Virus record (IMG/VR): IMGVR_UViG_3300046492_000266
Span: 1-32,067 of that record
Reading direction: 5' to 3' (one strand)
DNA from: a virus
Length of the DNA: 32,067 bases
The position numbers and the translations under genes were made by a program. The notes under the pieces were generated by a model that saw only the letters and a program-made list of their open reading frames with translations, made no database searches and was not told where the DNA came from. Positions 9,553 to 27,533 of the stretch are shown here, piece by piece (the first letter of the stretch is position 1; each line of letters opens with the position of its first letter).

Positions 9553-10468
9553 TGCGCTCCCCTGCTTTGCGCTTGGCCAAGACCATTTGCGCGGCCTGTT
9601 CGGCGGCGGAGACGTTCGCCTCGGTGCGTTCCATCTGGCGTGCGGTTGTCCCGTTGATGCGCTGACCGGTCACCCACTGGGTGTGGTAGCTCTCGGCGTT
9701 GGCCAGCAGTTCGTTGAGGCTGTGGCACTTGCGCAGGACGGCGGCATCGCTGGTTTTCAGGTAGTGCGCAGCGACGTGATGAGCGACATCGGCGCCGAGG
9801 CGGTCGACCAGTTGGCCGAGCTGTCCACCGACCTTGGCGTTCCACACCGGCCAAGCACCTTGGTAGCGCTTTCGGTAGGCCATGGCGTAGTTCGCCCAGA
9901 CCTTGAAGGTTTTGCAGGACTGGTCTTTGGGGCCCGGCATGTCAGCGGGGATCTCAACCCGTGGCGTATCGGTTCGATCAACCACCAGCACCAAGTTGCG
10001 AGTTTGAACCGGCTCGACCTCGGCGGAAGCCGGGGGTGCAATTGGTTCAATGACCGGTTCCATGACTGGTTCAAGAGAGTTACTGATTCTGGGTGCAACT
10101 GCTGCACTACCCCCTAGTGCAGGAGATTCACTAGGGGGTGAACCTGCTGCACCACCCGGGTGAATCTTTTGCACTACCCCTGGTGCAGGAGGTGCACCAC
10201 CATCGAGAGTCAGAAAGTAAACGTTCGACGAATTTCCCTTCGGGCCACCCTTCCGAATTTCCTTGCGCAACAGTCCCGCCTCACACAGGGCGGTGATGTG
10301 GTTCATGACCGAACGCTTGCTGATCTCACACTGGTCAGCAATATGCTGGTAGGAAGGCCAGCATTCGCCTACGTCGCTTGCGTTGTCTGCCAACTTTATC
10401 AAGACCAGCTTGCGCAATGGATTGCCGACGCGAAGCTTCATTGCGGCGACCATAAGTCCCATGCTCAT
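9539..10468 (-). CDS. O-like replication initiation protein
   Basis: A 309-aa protein. The start at 10468 has GGAGG upstream and overlaps the HNH gene stop (ATGA). Residues ~10-90 form a winged helix-turn-helix typical of phage initiators (GNPLRKLVLIKLADNAS, CWPSYQHIADQCEISKRSV, HITALCEAGLL). A Pro/Gly/Ala/Ser-rich linker (~95-150) is encoded by the candidate origin repeats at 10092-10200. The C-terminal half (MAYRKRYQGAWPVWNAKVGG) probably contacts the loader. Like lambda O, origin and initiator share the same DNA. Confidence 0.85.
   Translation of the reverse strand: MSMGLMVAAMKLRVGNPLRKLVLIKLADNASDVGECWPSYQHIADQCEISKRSVMNHITALCEAGLLRKEIRKGGPKGNSSNVYFLTLDGGAPPAPGVVQKIHPGGAAGSPPSESPALGGSAAVAPRISNSLEPVMEPVIEPIAPPASAEVEPVQTRNLVLVVDRTDTPRVEIPADMPGPKDQSCKTFKVWANYAMAYRKRYQGAWPVWNAKVGGQLGQLVDRLGADVAHHVAAHYLKTSDAAVLRKCHSLNELLANAESYHTQWVTGQRINGTTARQMERTEANVSAAEQAAQMVLAKRKAGERNEYI
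10092..10200. other. Candidate replication origin: four palindromic iterons
   Basis: Four hyphenated palindromes stand in a row inside the O-like gene: TGCACTACCCCCTAGTGCA (10103-10121), TTCACTAGGGGGTGAA (10127-10142), TGCACCACCCGGGTGAA (10148-10164) and TGCACTACCCCTGGTGCA (10170-10187), followed by GGTGCACC (10191-10198). Starts are spaced 24, 21 and 22 bp, about two helical turns. Half-site TKCACYA. In lambda the O-binding iterons also lie within gene O, in the interdomain linker coding region. Confidence 0.65.
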
Positions 10469-11052
10469 GCGGCACCTCCGGAAATACCGCGAAAGTCGAT
10501 TGTCTGTACGCCTTTCCAACTATTGCAGGACATGCAAAGGGTTTGAAGGTTGGCCAAAGAGGCTTCTCCGCCTAGGCTTTCAGGCAATACGTGATCCGCT
10601 CGCAAGCGCATCAGAACCGAGCAGCCACAGCGCAGACAGGCGTGACCATCGCGGGCGAATACTTGAGCGCGCAGACCTGAAGAAATTGGTTTCTTTTTCG
10701 TCCGGCGCCGAGGTGGGAGGATTGCGGGTTGGTAGGCGCTGACGTGACCCATACCGTTCGGGTTCCACTCACAGCCTTTTTCGGTGAGTCGGAATGCCTC
10801 AGAGCGCAACTCAATCAAACCCGCCTCTTCCAGGGCCTTCAGCATGCGGTAAGCAGTGTCTGGCTTGTCAGTGAGCAGCGGAAGCTCCTCGATGATCTTG
10901 GCCTTGCTCAGCGCGAAGAAGATCCCGTCGTCAGTCTTGATTGGCTTTGTCCAGCTCGGGCAGCCGTAGACGAAGGCAAACAGCAGGGCCTGCTGAGAAT
11001 TCAGCCCCCAGTCCAACGCCTTCACCTGATTGATCGTGACGGTGAATTGCAT
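10465..11052 (-). CDS. Winged-helix protein fused to an HNH endonuclease
   Basis: A 195-aa two-domain protein. Residues ~1-110 look like a winged helix-turn-helix similar to phage initiators (SQQALLFAFVYGC, DKPDTAYRMLKALEEAGLIE). Residues ~125-190 are an HNH nuclease: CLRCGC at 139-144, DHVLPESLGGEASLANLQ with His154, and CMSCNSWKG with Cys173 and Cys176. A basic linker (PPRRRTKKKP) joins them. It sits one base after the Rha gene and just before the O-like gene, so it may nick or recombine near the origin. The fusion makes site-specific targeting plausible, though this is inference. Confidence 0.8.
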   Translation of the reverse strand: MQFTVTINQVKALDWGLNSQQALLFAFVYGCPSWTKPIKTDDGIFFALSKAKIIEELPLLTDKPDTAYRMLKALEEAGLIELRSEAFRLTEKGCEWNPNGMGHVSAYQPAILPPRRRTKKKPISSGLRAQVFARDGHACLRCGCSVLMRLRADHVLPESLGGEASLANLQTLCMSCNSWKGVQTIDFRGISGGAA

Positions 11053-12879: not shown

Positions 12880-13539
12880 ATGGAAAGACACGAACGTATT
12901 GCCCGAGCTATACAGCTCAGCGGGAAAAAGAAGGGCGAAATTGCGGCGCTGTGCGGCGTCGCGAACTCTGCTGTCACTCAATGGATTACTGGCGAGAGCA
13001 AAAGCCTCCGGCCAGAGAATCTCTACGCCTTGGCAAAAGCGACTGGCTTCAGAGCAGAGTGGCTTGCTATTGGTGAGGGTGCGGAGCAGGAGGCGTCAGA
13101 GCCCAACGTCTCGATGACTGAGCAGCCTTCTCAGAGCTTCCGCTACCCAGTGATCAGTTGGGTATCGGCTGGCTCATGGGCCGAGGCTGTAGAGCCCTAC
13201 CCTGCAGGCATCTCGGATCGCTACGAGTTTTCCGAATACAACTCGAAAGGCCCAGCGTTCTGGCTTGAAGTCAAAGGCGACTCGATGACATCGCCGGTAG
13301 GTACGAGCATCGCCCAGGGCTCACTGATCCTGGTGGATACCGAAGTCGAAGCGGCGCCGGGCAAGCTTGTGGTAGCCAAACTTCCAGACAGCAACGAGGC
13401 GACCTTCAAGAAGCTGGTCAGCGATGGTGGAAAGCTCTATCTGAAGCCGCTCAACCCTGGATACCCGACCGAAGTCTTTGATGAAAACTGCCGGATAGTT
13501 GGCGTCGTAGTGCAAGCAACACAGAAGTTTCACTACTGA
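12880..13539 (+). CDS. CI-like repressor with S24 self-cleavage domain
   Basis: A 219-aa lysogeny repressor. Residues ~1-65 are a helix-turn-helix (KKGEIAALCGVANSAVTQWI). Residues ~90-219 are a LexA/CI peptidase S24 domain with the Ala97-Gly98 cleavage bond (VISWVSAGSW), nucleophile Ser135 (KGDSM) and probable Lys177 (EATFKKL). RecA-stimulated cleavage would induce the prophage after DNA damage. It is divergent from cro across the operator trio and is read rightward into the lysogenic genes. No ribosome site precedes the ATG, suggesting a leaderless message. Confidence 0.95.
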   Translation: MERHERIARAIQLSGKKKGEIAALCGVANSAVTQWITGESKSLRPENLYALAKATGFRAEWLAIGEGAEQEASEPNVSMTEQPSQSFRYPVISWVSAGSWAEAVEPYPAGISDRYEFSEYNSKGPAFWLEVKGDSMTSPVGTSIAQGSLILVDTEVEAAPGKLVVAKLPDSNEATFKKLVSDGGKLYLKPLNPGYPTEVFDENCRIVGVVVQATQKFHY

Positions 13540-13832: not shown

Positions 13833-14072
13833 GTGGCCCTCACTAAGCCCAACCAGCAGCTGCGCCGAGACCTAAAAGAGGCTGCTGCCCTACTCAAGTG
13901 GTCAGGCGTCGACCTCATGCAGGCGGCGGTGAAGCTGTCAGAGGCCGGGCAAGAGGATGAGGCCAAAGAGCTGTTGAGGATCGCGGCCGGCTTCCAGGAG
14001 GCCGAGGACAAGCTGGCGGGGTATGCGGAAGAGGTGAAGGCGGGAAGGATTGTGCGGGCGAATCTGGAGTAG
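13833..14072 (+). CDS. Small helical hypothetical protein
   Basis: A 79-aa protein starting at GTG 13833, with GGAGGAAT in the preceding gene's end as ribosome site. The sequence is Ala/Glu/Leu-rich and all helical (LKEAAALLKWSGVDLMQAAV, EDEAKELLRIAAGFQEAEDK). It is 2 nt after the 62-aa gene, so they are coupled. A broken copy of its start lies at 13553-13594. The function is unknown. Confidence 0.65.
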   Translation: MALTKPNQQLRRDLKEAAALLKWSGVDLMQAAVKLSEAGQEDEAKELLRIAAGFQEAEDKLAGYAEEVKAGRIVRANLE

Positions 14073-14104: not shown

Positions 14105-14713
14105 GTGATCGAATTTATAAATTTAGCAAGGAGGCCGGGATTGATTCCTGAATGGAACGCGGAGGGCTTGTTACCTCCCATAAATGAATTGAATCCCGTT
14201 GACTTGAACAGATCGCCCTACGAAACGGATCTGGTTCAGCTGATTCAGCGCTTTTCCACCAGCGCAGAGCGCTGTCAGATCCTTCGTGGGTACTTAGCTC
14301 ATCGAGCTGAGCTTCATCTCATGGGTATGGATACGGGTTTTCAGTGGCTCAATGGCAGCTTTTCAGAAAACATCGAGCTGATTGAGCATCGACCACCGGG
14401 AGATGTTGACGTCGTCACCTTCACTCATCGAGGCGACGATTTTTTTGATGCGCTAACTGAGGAACAAATCCGCCTTTTGGGTGATACTGAGTGGATCAAA
14501 GAACGATTCAAGGTTGACTTCTACGTCCAGTCTCTACAGGACGATCCCGAAATTCTGGTGTCTATGTCTGCATACTGGTACAGCATGTGGTCTCATCGAA
14601 GGTCTAGGCAGTGGAAAGGATTCCTAAAATTAGACCTCGCACCACATCAAGACGCCGAAGCTCTGGCATTGCTCGAAGCTCGTCAACAGGAGCTAGCACA
14701 TGAACAGGAATGA
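14105..14713 (+). CDS. DUF6932-type protein with nucleotidyltransferase-like motif
   Basis: A 202-aa protein starting at GTG 14105. RSPYETDLVQLIQRFSTSAE, then RGYLAHRAELHLMGMDTGFQ, then WLNGSF (Gly84-Ser85) and GDVDVVTF (Asp100-x-Asp102) follow the pattern I know from DUF6932 proteins. The GS...DxD arrangement is the signature of pol-beta-type nucleotidyltransferases, with 14 residues between the two parts instead of the usual 9-13. A 14-bp overlap couples it to a 300-aa partner. It sits where lambda has rexBA and is visibly AT-richer than its neighbours, so a toxin, antitoxin or exclusion role is plausible but unproven. Confidence 0.75.
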   Translation: MIEFINLARRPGLIPEWNAEGLLPPINELNPVDLNRSPYETDLVQLIQRFSTSAERCQILRGYLAHRAELHLMGMDTGFQWLNGSFSENIELIEHRPPGDVDVVTFTHRGDDFFDALTEEQIRLLGDTEWIKERFKVDFYVQSLQDDPEILVSMSAYWYSMWSHRRSRQWKGFLKLDLAPHQDAEALALLEARQQELAHEQE

Positions 14714-15602
14714 GTATCTACATAGCGCTGCCGAGCTCAGCTTCCTTGAAAAAGAGGTTTCTAAAAAAGGCTTGAGCAGGCTCACGGCCATGTCGCTGAA
14801 CTCCAGAATTCAGCGCGCGAAGTCATATCTTGCACAAAGCAATGGAAATGCATATCAACCTGCAAAAGTCATATTGACCTATCGTGGATCTCCAGTTTGG
14901 GGAACCCATGGGGTTCTAGCTGAGTTTGGAACCTCGGCCACTCAAGCGTTCAGCGAAGCAATCTCTATGATTGCCGCATCGATTTCCGGAACCTTGGCGG
15001 ATAAGGGCCCCATCCCGAATCGATCTAGCAATCAGCTTCTGATAACTGGGGCAGCACTCGGGTCTTTTGGTTTTCAGCTAGAGGAAGCGCCTGCTGAACG
15101 CCAGCTTGACATTGAAGGCACAACACCGGTTTCTCAGGCAATCGATCTGATAGCCGAGCTTCTCGAGGCCACGACAAAAAGTGATGAAGAACTATCTGAG
15201 CCAGTATCTAGGTTGGCCGATAGAGCTATCACGGCTGTTGCGGATTTCTTGGGAAAATTATCCAGTTATGAAGCATCTTGCTCCCTGACCACTCGTACAA
15301 AAAAGTTTCAATTTACTGATAGTGAGCAGGTGAGGCGCAGCAAGGAGCGGCTCAATCTGGACAACATAAAAGAAAGCATTGAGACATTTACAGGTGAATT
15401 TATTGGAGCTCTGCCGGACAAAAGAGCCTTTGAGTTCAGGACGGTAGACGGTCACGTAATTTATGGAAGCATCAAAAGAGATGTACCGAACCCCAACGCC
15501 ATAAATCAACATCTCTATAGCTCATTTAAAATAACTGTGAATGCGAAAAGAATTGGTAGCAGTAGACCTCGATACATTCTCCAAGCCTTCCCTTGGGAAT
15601 GA
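14700..15602 (+). CDS. Partner of the DUF6932 gene, unknown function
   Basis: A 300-aa protein with no recognised domain. The N-terminal ~60 residues are helical (SAAELSFLEKEVSKKGLSRL). A central block (SPVWGTHGVLAEFGTSATQA, FSEAISMIAASISG) is followed by Glu/Ala-rich helices, and the C-terminal ~100 residues look beta-rich (FEFRTVDGHVIYGSIKRDVP, then SSFKITVNAKRIG). The start at 14700 overlaps the DUF6932 gene by 14 bp. A strong terminator follows its stop, so the pair ends the first lysogenic transcript. The composition is AT-richer than the phage core, which suggests recent acquisition as a two-gene cassette. Confidence 0.75.
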   Translation: MNRNEYLHSAAELSFLEKEVSKKGLSRLTAMSLNSRIQRAKSYLAQSNGNAYQPAKVILTYRGSPVWGTHGVLAEFGTSATQAFSEAISMIAASISGTLADKGPIPNRSSNQLLITGAALGSFGFQLEEAPAERQLDIEGTTPVSQAIDLIAELLEATTKSDEELSEPVSRLADRAITAVADFLGKLSSYEASCSLTTRTKKFQFTDSEQVRRSKERLNLDNIKESIETFTGEFIGALPDKRAFEFRTVDGHVIYGSIKRDVPNPNAINQHLYSSFKITVNAKRIGSSRPRYILQAFPWE

Positions 15603-15615
15603 ACAGGTAGACCTT

Positions 15616-15646
15616 AAGCCCGGCCCAGCGCCGGGCTTCTTGTTTC
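15616..15646 (+). terminator. Terminator after the DUF6932 pair
   Basis: AAGCCCGGC, loop CCAGC, GCCGGGCTT, then TCTTGTTT. It ends the cI-to-14700 transcript. Confidence 0.8.
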
Positions 15647-16347: not shown

Positions 16348-16420
16348 GATAGCTACTGGGAACGTGAATTGCAGCCGAAGAGCTGCTGACGCTAACCAGT
16401 GATAGATGAGGCAGACAAAA

Positions 16421-16897
16421 ATGAACGCAATTGACCTTCTCAAAGCCGACCACGAAAAAGTAAAAGGCATCCTGAGCCAGCTGAGCGAATCCACTGATCG
16501 CGCGCTGAAAAAGCGCGTCGAGCTTCTCGACAAACTCGAAATGGAAATCACCATCCACACGCAGCTTGAGGAGCAAATTCTCTACCCCGCCTTCAAAGAA
16601 GCCGGCGGTAAGGAACAGGACGAGATGTATTACGAGGCCAAGGAAGAGCACCGCACAGTGGACTCCCTAGTGCTGCCAGATCTAAAAGGCACCGATCCGT
16701 CTACCCCGGAGTTCGCCGGCCGCGTAAAAGTCGTAAAAGAGCTGCTGGAACACCACATCGAGGAAGAGGAAACTGAAATGTTTCCTCAGGCGAAAAAGCT
16801 ACTGGGCAAAGCGAAGCTCGATGAGTTGGGCGAGCAAATGGAAGTGATGAAAACTTCATTGAAGAAAAGCTTGAGCGCAGCACACATGGCTGCTTGA
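16421..16897 (+). CDS. Hemerythrin-domain (HHE) protein
   Basis: A 158-aa four-helix protein that binds a di-iron centre and carries or senses oxygen or related oxidants. Ligands of the family pattern are visible: His11 (KADHEKV), His46 and Glu50 (IHTQLEEQ), His77 (KEEHRTVD), and His111/His112 with Glu116 (EHHIEEEETEMF). ATG 16421 is chosen because GAGG lies 9 nt before it. It stands alone, with a sigma54-like promoter upstream and a terminator downstream, so it is a lysogenic cargo gene not needed for phage growth and may serve the host. Confidence 0.9.
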   Translation: MNAIDLLKADHEKVKGILSQLSESTDRALKKRVELLDKLEMEITIHTQLEEQILYPAFKEAGGKEQDEMYYEAKEEHRTVDSLVLPDLKGTDPSTPEFAGRVKVVKELLEHHIEEEETEMFPQAKKLLGKAKLDELGEQMEVMKTSLKKSLSAAHMAA

Positions 16898-25444: not shown

Positions 25445-25680
25445 GCTTGAAGCCCTGCCGCGCAGGCCGCTGCAACCGCAGCGCAGGCACTAATACGAGA
25501 TTGCTTCTGCGCAGTTCTTACGAAATCAGTTATCCCATCGCCGTGCACACCAACAGGCGAGCCGTCGTCATTTTTCCTCGGCTCATACGGAACGTGTGCC
25601 ATGGCTGACCAGATCCAAAGTCCCGCAGAAATCAATCCAGCAGCTCCCGATAACGCGACCAAAACCGTTTTCAGCGTCAT
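25420..25680 (-). CDS. Small two-pass membrane protein
   Basis: An 86-aa protein with GGAGG 5 nt before ATG 25680. Membrane helices at ~5-25 (TVLVALSGAAGLISAGLWIW) and ~65-82 (ISACAAVAAACAAGLQAW), with a short polar loop (PYEPRKNDDGSPVGVHGDGI) between. It is the first gene of the leftward AT-rich cassette and divergent from the methyltransferase gene (48 bp between starts). Function unknown. Confidence 0.65.
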   Translation of the reverse strand: MTLKTVLVALSGAAGLISAGLWIWSAMAHVPYEPRKNDDGSPVGVHGDGITDFVRTAQKQSRISACAAVAAACAAGLQAWSIFLSD

Positions 25681-25727
25681 CACGACCTCCATTTAAAGCC
25701 GCCAAATATACCAACAAGGATCCCCCG

Positions 25728-27533
25728 ATGCCCGCACAACAGAAATTACCCCAGTTCATCCATAGCCAGCCAAGCATGGGTCTGCCATTCGAAAAGGAAC
25801 TGGTGGTCGATCTGTTCGCCGGCGGTGGAGGCGCCAGCACCGGCATCGCTCGGGCATACCGGGAGCCGGACGTGGCGGTAAACCACAATCCTATCGCCCT
25901 GGCTGTGCATCGCGCCAACCACCCAACGACAGCGCACTACGTGGCAGACGTGTTCGAGGTTGACCCGCGGGAAGCCACGGGCGGACAGCCGGTGGCGATC
26001 ATTTGGGCATCACCGGATTGTCGTCACCACAGCAAGGCCAAGGGCGGCGCGCCTCGCGATCGAGGCGTTCGGGGGTTGGCCTGGGTGGTGATCCGCTGGC
26101 TGTTCGTAACGAAGTCGCGCCTGCTCTTCCTCGAAAACGTTGAAGAGTTCTGCGACTGGGGCCCGATCGACGACGACGGCCAGCCGATCAAGTCTGAACG
26201 CGGCCGCACCTTCAAAGCGTTCATTGCCGCGATCAGCACCGGCCTGCCCGCTGATCATTCGGACATGCAGGAGATCATCGAGGCGATCGGAGAGTTCGTT
26301 CCAGTGGAAGCTCTGGTGCGGGGGCTGGGCTATAACGCTGAGTGGCGGGAGCGCATCGCGGCGAACGCTGGCACCCCGACCATCCGCAAGCGCCTTTATC
26401 TGGTGGCGCGCAGCGACGGCAAGCCGATCATCTGGCCGGCGCCGAAGCGTCACAAGCGGCCAGCGGCGAAGCAATTGCCATGGCGCTCCGCGGCTGAATG
26501 CATCGACTGGAGCAACCTCGGCCGCACGATCTTTCGTGAGAAGCCGATGGCCGAAAACACCATGCGCCGCGTGGCTAAGGGTTGTTGGCGTCATATGCTC
26601 ACCAGTGCGAAGCCTTTCATCGTGCCGATGCGCGGCACCTCATCGGCGCACACCAGCACGCACGGCACCGACGAAGCGCTTTCCACGATCAGCGCGGGCG
26701 GCACTCACCACGCGCTGGTGCAGCCCGTTGCGGCGCCCTTCCTCACCGAATGCGCGAACGGATCAGCTCAGCGCAACTTCGACGTGCAGGAGCCGCTGCG
26801 TACGCAGGTCGCTCAAGTCAAAGGGGGTCACTTCGCGATGGCAGCAGCACACATGACCGCATTCGGGCAAAACGCAGCGGGCGGCTCACCTGACGATCCA
26901 GCGCAGACGGTTATGGCTGGCGCTGCTCGGCACGGCATCGTCACAGCGTTCTTTGAACAGGCCAACGGCGGCTTCTACAAAGGCGACGGCCGATCGGCCT
27001 ATGATCCGATATCGACCATCTGCCAGTCTGGCGCCAATCAGCGCCTGGTGAGCGCTTACCTGGTGAAGTATTACGGCAACGAGAAGGACGGTATCTCGCT
27101 CAATGAGCCGATGCACACGCTGCCGACGAAAGATCGCGTTGCGGTCGTCGAGACGGTGCAGGTGCCCGACACGCTGACTCCTGAGCAAATGGAAGGCGCC
27201 CGGCGCTGCGCTGCCTTCATGCACAAATACCTGCCGGAGCATTTCAAAGACCCGGCTGAAATGGTGATGGTCGGCGGCTATGTGCTGATCGATATCACAT
27301 TGCGCATGCTGCAACCGCCTGAGCTGAAGGCCGCTCAAGGCTTCGACAAGGACTACATCATCGATCGCGGTCTGTTCGTCGACCCAGTCACCGGCGTCGA
27401 GGAATGGCGCGACATCAAGAAGGTCGATCAGGTGCGGCTGATCGGCAACAGCGTCTGTCCAGACGAAGCCGAGGCACTGGTAGCAGCCAACGCCGCAGAC
27501 ATAATTGAGCTATATCAACAGTTAGCGGCATAA
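25728..27533 (+). CDS. C5 cytosine DNA methyltransferase with internal repeats
   Basis: A 601-aa phage methyltransferase acting on cytosine C5. Motif I DLFAGGGGASTGI (residues 28-40), motif IV ASPDCRHHSKAKGG with catalytic Cys98 (PDC instead of PPC), motif VI ENVEE (136-140), motif VIII IRKRLYLVA, and a C-terminal motif with LIGNSVCPDEAEAL. Between motifs VIII and IX about five ~40-aa repeats occur, each with a core like DPxxTxxxGxxHxLV (DEALSTISAGGTHHALV, DDPAQTVMAGAARHGIV, YDPISTICQSGANQRLV). ATG 25728 is preceded by AAGGA. It probably protects the phage genome from host restriction. Confidence 0.9.
   Translation: MPAQQKLPQFIHSQPSMGLPFEKELVVDLFAGGGGASTGIARAYREPDVAVNHNPIALAVHRANHPTTAHYVADVFEVDPREATGGQPVAIIWASPDCRHHSKAKGGAPRDRGVRGLAWVVIRWLFVTKSRLLFLENVEEFCDWGPIDDDGQPIKSERGRTFKAFIAAISTGLPADHSDMQEIIEAIGEFVPVEALVRGLGYNAEWRERIAANAGTPTIRKRLYLVARSDGKPIIWPAPKRHKRPAAKQLPWRSAAECIDWSNLGRTIFREKPMAENTMRRVAKGCWRHMLTSAKPFIVPMRGTSSAHTSTHGTDEALSTISAGGTHHALVQPVAAPFLTECANGSAQRNFDVQEPLRTQVAQVKGGHFAMAAAHMTAFGQNAAGGSPDDPAQTVMAGAARHGIVTAFFEQANGGFYKGDGRSAYDPISTICQSGANQRLVSAYLVKYYGNEKDGISLNEPMHTLPTKDRVAVVETVQVPDTLTPEQMEGARRCAAFMHKYLPEHFKDPAEMVMVGGYVLIDITLRMLQPPELKAAQGFDKDYIIDRGLFVDPVTGVEEWRDIKKVDQVRLIGNSVCPDEAEALVAANAADIIELYQQLAA

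Follow-up and report, generated by a model that had tools for sequence, protein, structure and literature searches.

A conserved pair of overlapping genes, here termed A and B, was observed directly behind the cI-type repressor gene of the window (the whole stretch of 32,067 nucleotides that was analysed), confirming the observation of a two-gene module at the position of the lambda rex genes. A is predicted to be a DUF6932 nucleotidyltransferase and B a partner protein with a C-terminal OB-fold. As judged from sequence comparison, A/B is a divergent branch of PDC-M63AB. Since B is a remote homologue of PDC-M63B, which is already present in PADLOC-DB, the proposal of a previously undescribed system has to be dropped in favor of an already catalogued candidate. 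We put the probability that A/B is an anti-phage module at all at roughly 0.65. The features of the locus are listed in Table 1.

Table 1. Features of the cI-A-B locus (positions in the window).
Feature	Position	Strand	Basis or remark
cI-type repressor (HTH and S24 peptidase)	12880..13539	+	Peptidase_S24, E 7e-28; phrog_4, E 2e-53
Small ORF between cI and A, 62 aa	13642..13830	+	found in 1 of 80 cI relatives
Small ORF between cI and A, 79 aa, phrog_6388	13833..14072	+	sometimes stays with cI though the downstream cargo differs
Longer gene A frame	14105..14713	+	202 aa from GTG 14105
AAGGAGG, Shine-Dalgarno-like	14128..14134	+	by sequence; 6 nt 5' of TTG 14141
Gene A, DUF6932, putative minimal nucleotidyltransferase	14141..14713	+	190 aa from probable start TTG 14141
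Overlap of A and B, 14 bp	14700..14713	+	ORF coordinates
Gene B, 300 aa	14700..15602	+	phrog_18731; AF2 model; hhalign to PDC-M63B-type proteins
Intrinsic-terminator-like hairpin	15616..15638	+	9-bp stem with 7 GC; directly 3' of B

The virus is a prophage in a Pseudomonas genome with a lambda-like cI-rexA-rexB layout. Both overlapping frames that the sequence-only reading had described are present as stated, and its claims on genomic placement hold as well. The pair is read from the repressor side, on the strand of cI, no plus-strand terminator was found between cI and A, and genes for RecT, RecE, and an integrase follow B. Since these are situated 3' on the same strand, as in the left arm of lambda, the rexBA position can be taken literally. 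CII-like and Rha/HNH genes are opposite in direction to cI-A-B. The hairpin next to B is presumed to close the cI-A-B transcription unit, and due to this layout on the strand of cI both genes are probably expressed in the lysogen. Translational coupling via the overlap is likely.

Three further regions of the window may be mentioned. In the left arm, the protein encoded at 16406-16897 (MNAIDLLKADHEKVKGILSQL...) was read by eye as hemerythrin-like (HHE) and has no match in PHROG; its gene is a possible lysogenic-conversion gene. Beside the replication side, the minus-strand gene at 10465-11052 joins a phrog_11527-like N-terminal half to an HNH endonuclease domain, which looks like a fusion or a homing-type insertion. 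A 645-aa DNA methyltransferase encoded at 25596-27533 is flanked by low-GC stretches at about 24.5-25.5 kb and 27.5-28.5 kb and is possibly part of a further cargo segment.

Regarding base composition, A and B (GC 0.490 and 0.470, respectively) are indeed AT-richer than the early region of the phage (about 0.57), as had been noted. This property is not peculiar to the pair, because the low-GC stretch extends to about 16.9 kb (0.518), and an AT-rich island confined to A/B was consequently rejected. In every computable pair of relatives dN/dS of A and B ranged from 0.02 to 0.18, with heavy synonymous change, which indicates strong purifying selection on two real genes. Chance ORFs were rejected due to these values (below 0.2) and because dozens of loci conserve both genes from end to end.

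In case of gene A, the frame proposed previously stands, whereas its GTG start is probably 12 codons too early. The TTG codon is favored by the Shine-Dalgarno-like sequence in front of it, by the N-termini of A homologues, which open with MIPEWN and align at this codon, and by the poor modelling of residues 1-10 of the 202-aa protein (AF2, pLDDT 55). The likeness to DUF6932 is well founded: PF22014 is matched over its entire profile (1-142 of 142) with E 3.8e-29 and 102.4 bits, the curated gathering score being 27 bits. Furthermore, A belongs to phrog_9194 (E 1.6e-40) and matches the PADLOC model of PDC-M63A with E 2.7e-12.

The GS...DxD motif, also noticed beforehand, reads G84-S85-F86...P98-x-D100-x-D102...D138 in the numbering of the 202-aa frame. 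G84, S85, P98, D100, and D102 are invariant in 48 of 48 relatives, and the third aspartate, D138, is found in 44 of 48. The loop between GS and DxD comprises 14 residues (GSx14DxD), compared to 8-9 in the sister branches; with GSx9DxD, the PDC-M63 branch has a loop shorter by five residues, and identity of A to this branch is only about 20%. Sister-branch A proteins have 150-160 aa, those of the window branch about 30-40 aa more. The AF2 model of A (pLDDT 92.8) shows, in order, a strand, the GS turn, a helix, the DxD strand, and a later strand carrying D138, the arrangement of a minimal nucleotidyltransferase. In the model, A is little more than a catalytic core flanked by short helices. Its top Foldseek matches include the nucleotidyltransferases 2rff, the MNT antitoxins 7ae9 and 7ae2, and 1no5, all of them weak (E 0.03-0.2, best 0.034, with 2rff, 7ae9, and 7ae2 at 0.03-0.07; TM below 0.5). 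The predicted fold appears nucleotidyltransferase-like, though at weak E-values only, and the assignment is based mainly on motif and topology. Neither this fold nor the conservation of B next to A (see below) refutes the earlier proposal. Judged by its conserved residues, A is a minimal nucleotidyltransferase with putatively intact catalysis. Matches of A to MenAT and AbiE families were searched for in Pfam, PADLOC, and NCBIfam, and none was obtained.

A nucleotidyltransferase with an unrelated partner in a defence context is also the arrangement of CBASS-like signalling, in which a second messenger of nucleotide type, made by A, would activate B. CD-NTases depend on a larger helical domain, while A would be a bare core of 190 aa, and even smaller in the sister branch. 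In addition, no CD-NTase or CBASS model of PADLOC, NCBIfam, or Pfam matched A or B; CBASS membership was rejected on these grounds, and we regard signalling of this kind as highly improbable.

The description of B as unrecognised was correct insofar as sequence searches against Pfam, NCBIfam, PADLOC, and PDB yielded no relative, and neither the sequences nor the profiles of A and B retrieved anything significant from PDB. It does not extend to PHROG, where B is a member of phrog_18731 (E 1.5e-103, function unknown), nor to the remote homology to PDC-M63B. The AF2 model of B (pLDDT 89.5) comprises an N-terminal helical hairpin, a central alpha/beta and helical region with the sequence GSFGFxLEE at 121-129, of which GSFGF..E is invariant among relatives, and a C-terminal OB-fold at about 223-298. 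The OB domain was matched by Foldseek to IF1 with a probability of 1.00 (E 5e-3) and also to nucleic-acid-binding domains of the RsgA and CspA types. Conserved positions of B are structural glycine and phenylalanine residues together with R36, S122, and E128; the alignment contains no conserved His, Cys, or Lys. No transmembrane stretch was detected in B (maximal 19-residue hydropathy 1.04). In a Foldseek comparison of B (14700-15599) to BFVD a DUF6575 phage protein ranks first (E 2.8e-12, TM 0.41). A validated defence system of E. coli contains DUF6575 (PMC9519451), and a genome search with the Pfam DUF6575 model as a route to relatives of B gave partial matches only.

These structural data bear on an explanation of the MNT-like type VII kind, according to which A is an antitoxin that nucleotidylates B, or keeps it modified, and B a toxin acting on RNA via its OB domain once modification stops during infection. 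The MNT antitoxins of HEPN/MNT pairs and HI0073 among the best fold matches of A speak for it, as does the presumed minimal nucleotidyltransferase with a motif near the GSx10DxD of MntA. Moreover, the second gene of PD-lambda-2 is toxic and rescued by the first (PMC9519451), and a PD-lambda-2_B-like protein is encoded downstream of some DUF6932 genes. Yet B lacks HEPN features: it has neither the RX4HXY motif nor a HEPN match in Pfam, no conserved histidine, and its modelled fold is not the HEPN bundle, so that HEPN/MNT membership of A/B was rejected. The most conserved tyrosine of B, Y292, is present in only 79% of relatives, whereas the modified tyrosine of HepT is highly conserved, and B is intact at two loci (L004 and L031) where A is destroyed. 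Overall, we consider this explanation unlikely.

In the wider DUF6932 family two types of partner were observed. Some DUF6932 genes are followed by genes of about 305-aa proteins that match PADLOC PDC-M63B with E down to 1e-154; these partners also show weak matches to PDC-M32A. Other DUF6932 genes adjoin genes of HTH and ImmA/IrrE proteins (L024, L043, L042, L038, L049, and L112), and in case of L024 and L043 the partners match PD-lambda-2_B with E 4e-81 and 1e-75, respectively. Profile comparison by hhalign relates B, along its full length, to the PDC-M63B-type partners (probability 98.1, E 9e-13, 299 columns; with larger alignments 97.0, E 9e-11, 253 columns) and not to the HTH-ImmA/IrrE type (probability 0.1). 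One B relative (L008) matches PDC-M63B with 1.4e-4, whereas none of the PADLOC models, PDC-M63B included, matched B of the window at E up to 1, and because these models do not recognise it, B would escape PADLOC.

The sister-branch pair is located between cI and N or kil/gam/bet in coliphages mEpX1 and PhiR30_1 and in Erwinia phage 59, again in the order cI-A-B. Further DUF6932 genes were observed in satellite phage Javan304 and, close to an ImmA/IrrE gene, in Streptococcus phage MissE1. A DNA search with a sister-branch locus against complete E. coli genomes gave no match, divergence making this search uninformative. In E. coli NILS69, deleting PDC-M63AB from a prophage revealed no detectable defence against ten phages (PMC12409345).

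Relatives of the pair in phages were obtained from IMG/VR and via the sister branch; a tblastn comparison of both proteins with annotated phages gave no match. With the B profile, A was found directly upstream of B in all 49 viral loci of IMG/VR, normally overlapping or abutting, so the partner is conserved beside DUF6932 throughout the viral loci of the window branch. A cI-like repressor gene lies upstream on the same strand in 37 of these 49 loci; several of the others offer little sequence on that side, and in some the genes upstream encode phage tail proteins. The distance matrices of A and B for 34 loci are strongly correlated (mirror-tree r 0.918, permuted maximum 0.29 in 2000 permutations). 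Pseudomonas genomes carrying B served as centres for genome comparisons, in which DUF6932 scored above the cut-off for 16 of 299 genomes from the genus of one centre and for 17 of 398 from the phylum. In these whole-genome searches, too, A is almost always followed by B in the window branch.

Exceptions from this pairing are given by a few natural knock-outs. In L004 the catalytic half of A is gone and in L031 A is frameshifted, with B intact in both. Conversely, B is frameshifted in L103 (97% identity to the intact L101), no recognisable B accompanies the intact A of L048, and A is present without B in L057. A toxin-antitoxin pair of the classical addiction type, stabilising the prophage, would agree with two overlapping, mobile, and strictly paired genes and with the TA-like HTH-ImmA/IrrE partners of some DUF6932 genes. 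Due to gene loss in either direction, however, a simple addiction pair is disfavored, since an addictive toxin is unlikely to tolerate loss of its partner unless it is silent. The toxin-antitoxin reading proposed from the sequence is weakened by the same copies, and we regard addiction as quite improbable. The argument is soft insofar as the one-gene copies may be silent or misassembled. The remnants fit a system needing both parts or a trigger, and degenerate A next to intact B (L004, L031) fits A as the effector. Intact A beside broken or absent B argues that A is not freely toxic in L103, L048, and L057, which leaves restraint of A by B conjectural.

Outside phages, several copies of the pair are situated in defence contexts, in line with the placement suggested earlier. 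In L119 the order is hsdM, a short ORF, hsdS, A, B, a 255-aa ORF, and an HsdR-like ORF, i.e., the pair is located inside a type I restriction operon. In L117 it lies directly 3' of a type III mod gene and a Res-like ORF. Of the restriction genes at these loci, the R subunits were assigned by eye. In the region L119:1859-10617, the reading frame of hsdS carries, ahead of hsdS itself, an MNT-like stretch (read by eye; the ORF opens with MSEPPLIDIRPDHWEIVRAILKKH...WAFGSRAKW); two different nucleotidyltransferase-type sequences thus occur within one type I restriction operon. The pair adjoins multiubiquitin, ThiF, and DUF6527 genes in Bradyrhizobium (L056) and helicase and DNA methyltransferase genes in Paraburkholderia. 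It is also present on plasmids from Pseudomonas, Methylobacterium, Bradyrhizobium, and Paraburkholderia. Some chromosomal copies are solitary among housekeeping genes, e.g., L001 beside genes reading as cydAB. The defence-gene neighbours of chromosomal copies are individual cases without a matched control set and do not constitute an enrichment.

The region behind cI was compared among 80 phages (L131-L210) whose repressors are 59-100% identical to that of the window, and A/B was found in one of them. The slot of the other phages contained 115 ORFs of at least 170 aa, which fall into 66 clusters from 63 loci, and even phages with repressors 99-100% identical carry unrelated genes there (L132 and L133, both with cI at least 99% identical). 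Due to this hypervariable content we take the region behind cI to be a place where this group of Pseudomonas phages exchanges cargo genes. Among the alternative contents, pairs of a HipA-like and a second gene (L132, L146), an HTH-ImmA gene beside a PIN-like one (L137), and an AAA ATPase gene (L131) were recognised by eye.

The cI-adjacent site would provide expression in the lysogen whatever the function of the pair, and A/B could therefore serve lysogenic conversion or prophage maintenance instead of defence, e.g., by RNA modification or binding that tunes host physiology or prophage induction. Solitary copies among housekeeping genes (L001) and the PDC-M63AB deletion without a phage phenotype (PMC12409345) are consistent with such a role. 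The copies nested in the type I operon and adjacent to the type III genes, those on plasmids and in a satellite phage, and the cargo-like turnover of the slot fit conflict systems better, and a role other than phage defence has, in our estimation, a small chance of being correct.

We thus prefer an anti-phage function, for which strict pairing, co-inheritance, purifying selection, the cI-adjacent position in a cargo slot, and the restriction-operon copies speak. On the other side of the balance are the negative deletion (PMC12409345), the weak Foldseek matches of A, the many ligands of OB folds, and the solitary copies such as L001. We infer expression in the lysogen, a complex of A and B, the roles of effector and regulator, and the defence function. 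A/B would constitute a lysogen-expressed, two-protein exclusion or abortive-infection module, transcribed from the repressor side up to the terminator 3' of B. Because the only conserved active site is that of A, we assign the effector role to A and regard B as a nucleic-acid-binding regulator or targeting subunit; that A acts under the control of B is a tentative assignment, to which we give somewhat less than an even chance. Upon infection by another phage, A would modify an essential RNA or protein by nucleotide transfer, thereby halting phage production. B, translated from a start overlapping A, would control or target A: its helical N-terminal and central parts would hold A, and its IF1-like OB domain would bind RNA (or ssDNA) as trigger or substrate.

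As a more speculative and rather doubtful generalisation, DUF6932 nucleotidyltransferases may form the constant core of a wide range of defence modules in phages and islands whose partner is exchangeable, being either a member of a B/PDC-M63B superfamily with C-terminal OB domain or an HTH-ImmA/IrrE protease, and may perform a nucleotidylation of RNA or partner not yet described in anti-phage defence.

PDC-M63 has so far been a computational candidate, and the one published test found, in a wild E. coli strain, gave a negative result. The present analysis extends it to a divergent branch with a partner gene missed by current models, places the family in the rex slot of lambda-type phages whose hosts range from Pseudomonas to Escherichia and Erwinia (Streptococcus phages have related genes), ties it to restriction operons, and names the putative catalytic residues of A. 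With unrelated genes behind nearly identical repressors the slot looks like a cargo hotspot, and a systematic survey of it could yield many rex-like candidates. The long-standing question of which prophage genes act rex-like, and how, is now directly testable.

Among known systems, PDC-M63AB is the closest to A/B. Both consist of a DUF6932 gene and an overlapping gene of a protein of about 300 aa, the PDC-M63A model matches A, and the cI-adjacent site is shared with coliphages mEpX1 and PhiR30_1; B unseen by the PADLOC models and a longer, only distantly similar A with an extended GS-DxD loop set the window branch apart. HEPN/MNT (HepT/MntA) resembles A/B in its minimal nucleotidyltransferase with GSxnDxD and in the two-gene operon, but B is modelled as alpha/beta plus OB and not as a helical bundle with RX4HXY. 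MenAT and AbiE, the latter of which gives abortive infection, are likewise two-gene operons in which a nucleotidyltransferase is joined by an unrelated regulator. A matches neither family in Pfam, PADLOC, or NCBIfam, and gene order differs from that of A/B, where the nucleotidyltransferase gene comes first. MenT toxins modify tRNA (PMC11375011). PD-lambda-2 resembles the DUF6932 loci L024 and L043 with their PD-lambda-2_B-like HTH and ImmA/IrrE partner; in contrast, B of the window is unrelated to the PD-lambda-2_B-like protein, and PD-lambda-2_A is HigB-like.

In terms of arrangement, prophage-encoded defence such as CarolAnn gp43/gp44 and Sbash gp30/gp31 also requires two genes, although these proteins belong to other families than A and B (RexAB-like, with a weak DUF4747 match). 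CarolAnn genes 43 and 44 are co-transcribed with the repressor gene and give defence (PMC6426606), which provides a precedent for the anti-phage reading of A/B. RexA of lambda carries a DUF4747 domain, and RexAB membership of A/B was rejected, as neither a DUF4747 match nor a transmembrane stretch in B was found; B is no membrane protein and there is no sequence relation to RexA/RexB. What A/B and lambda RexA/RexB have in common is the position, with cI followed by the pair and then the side of N, RecET, and int, the number of two genes, and the expected expression in the lysogen.
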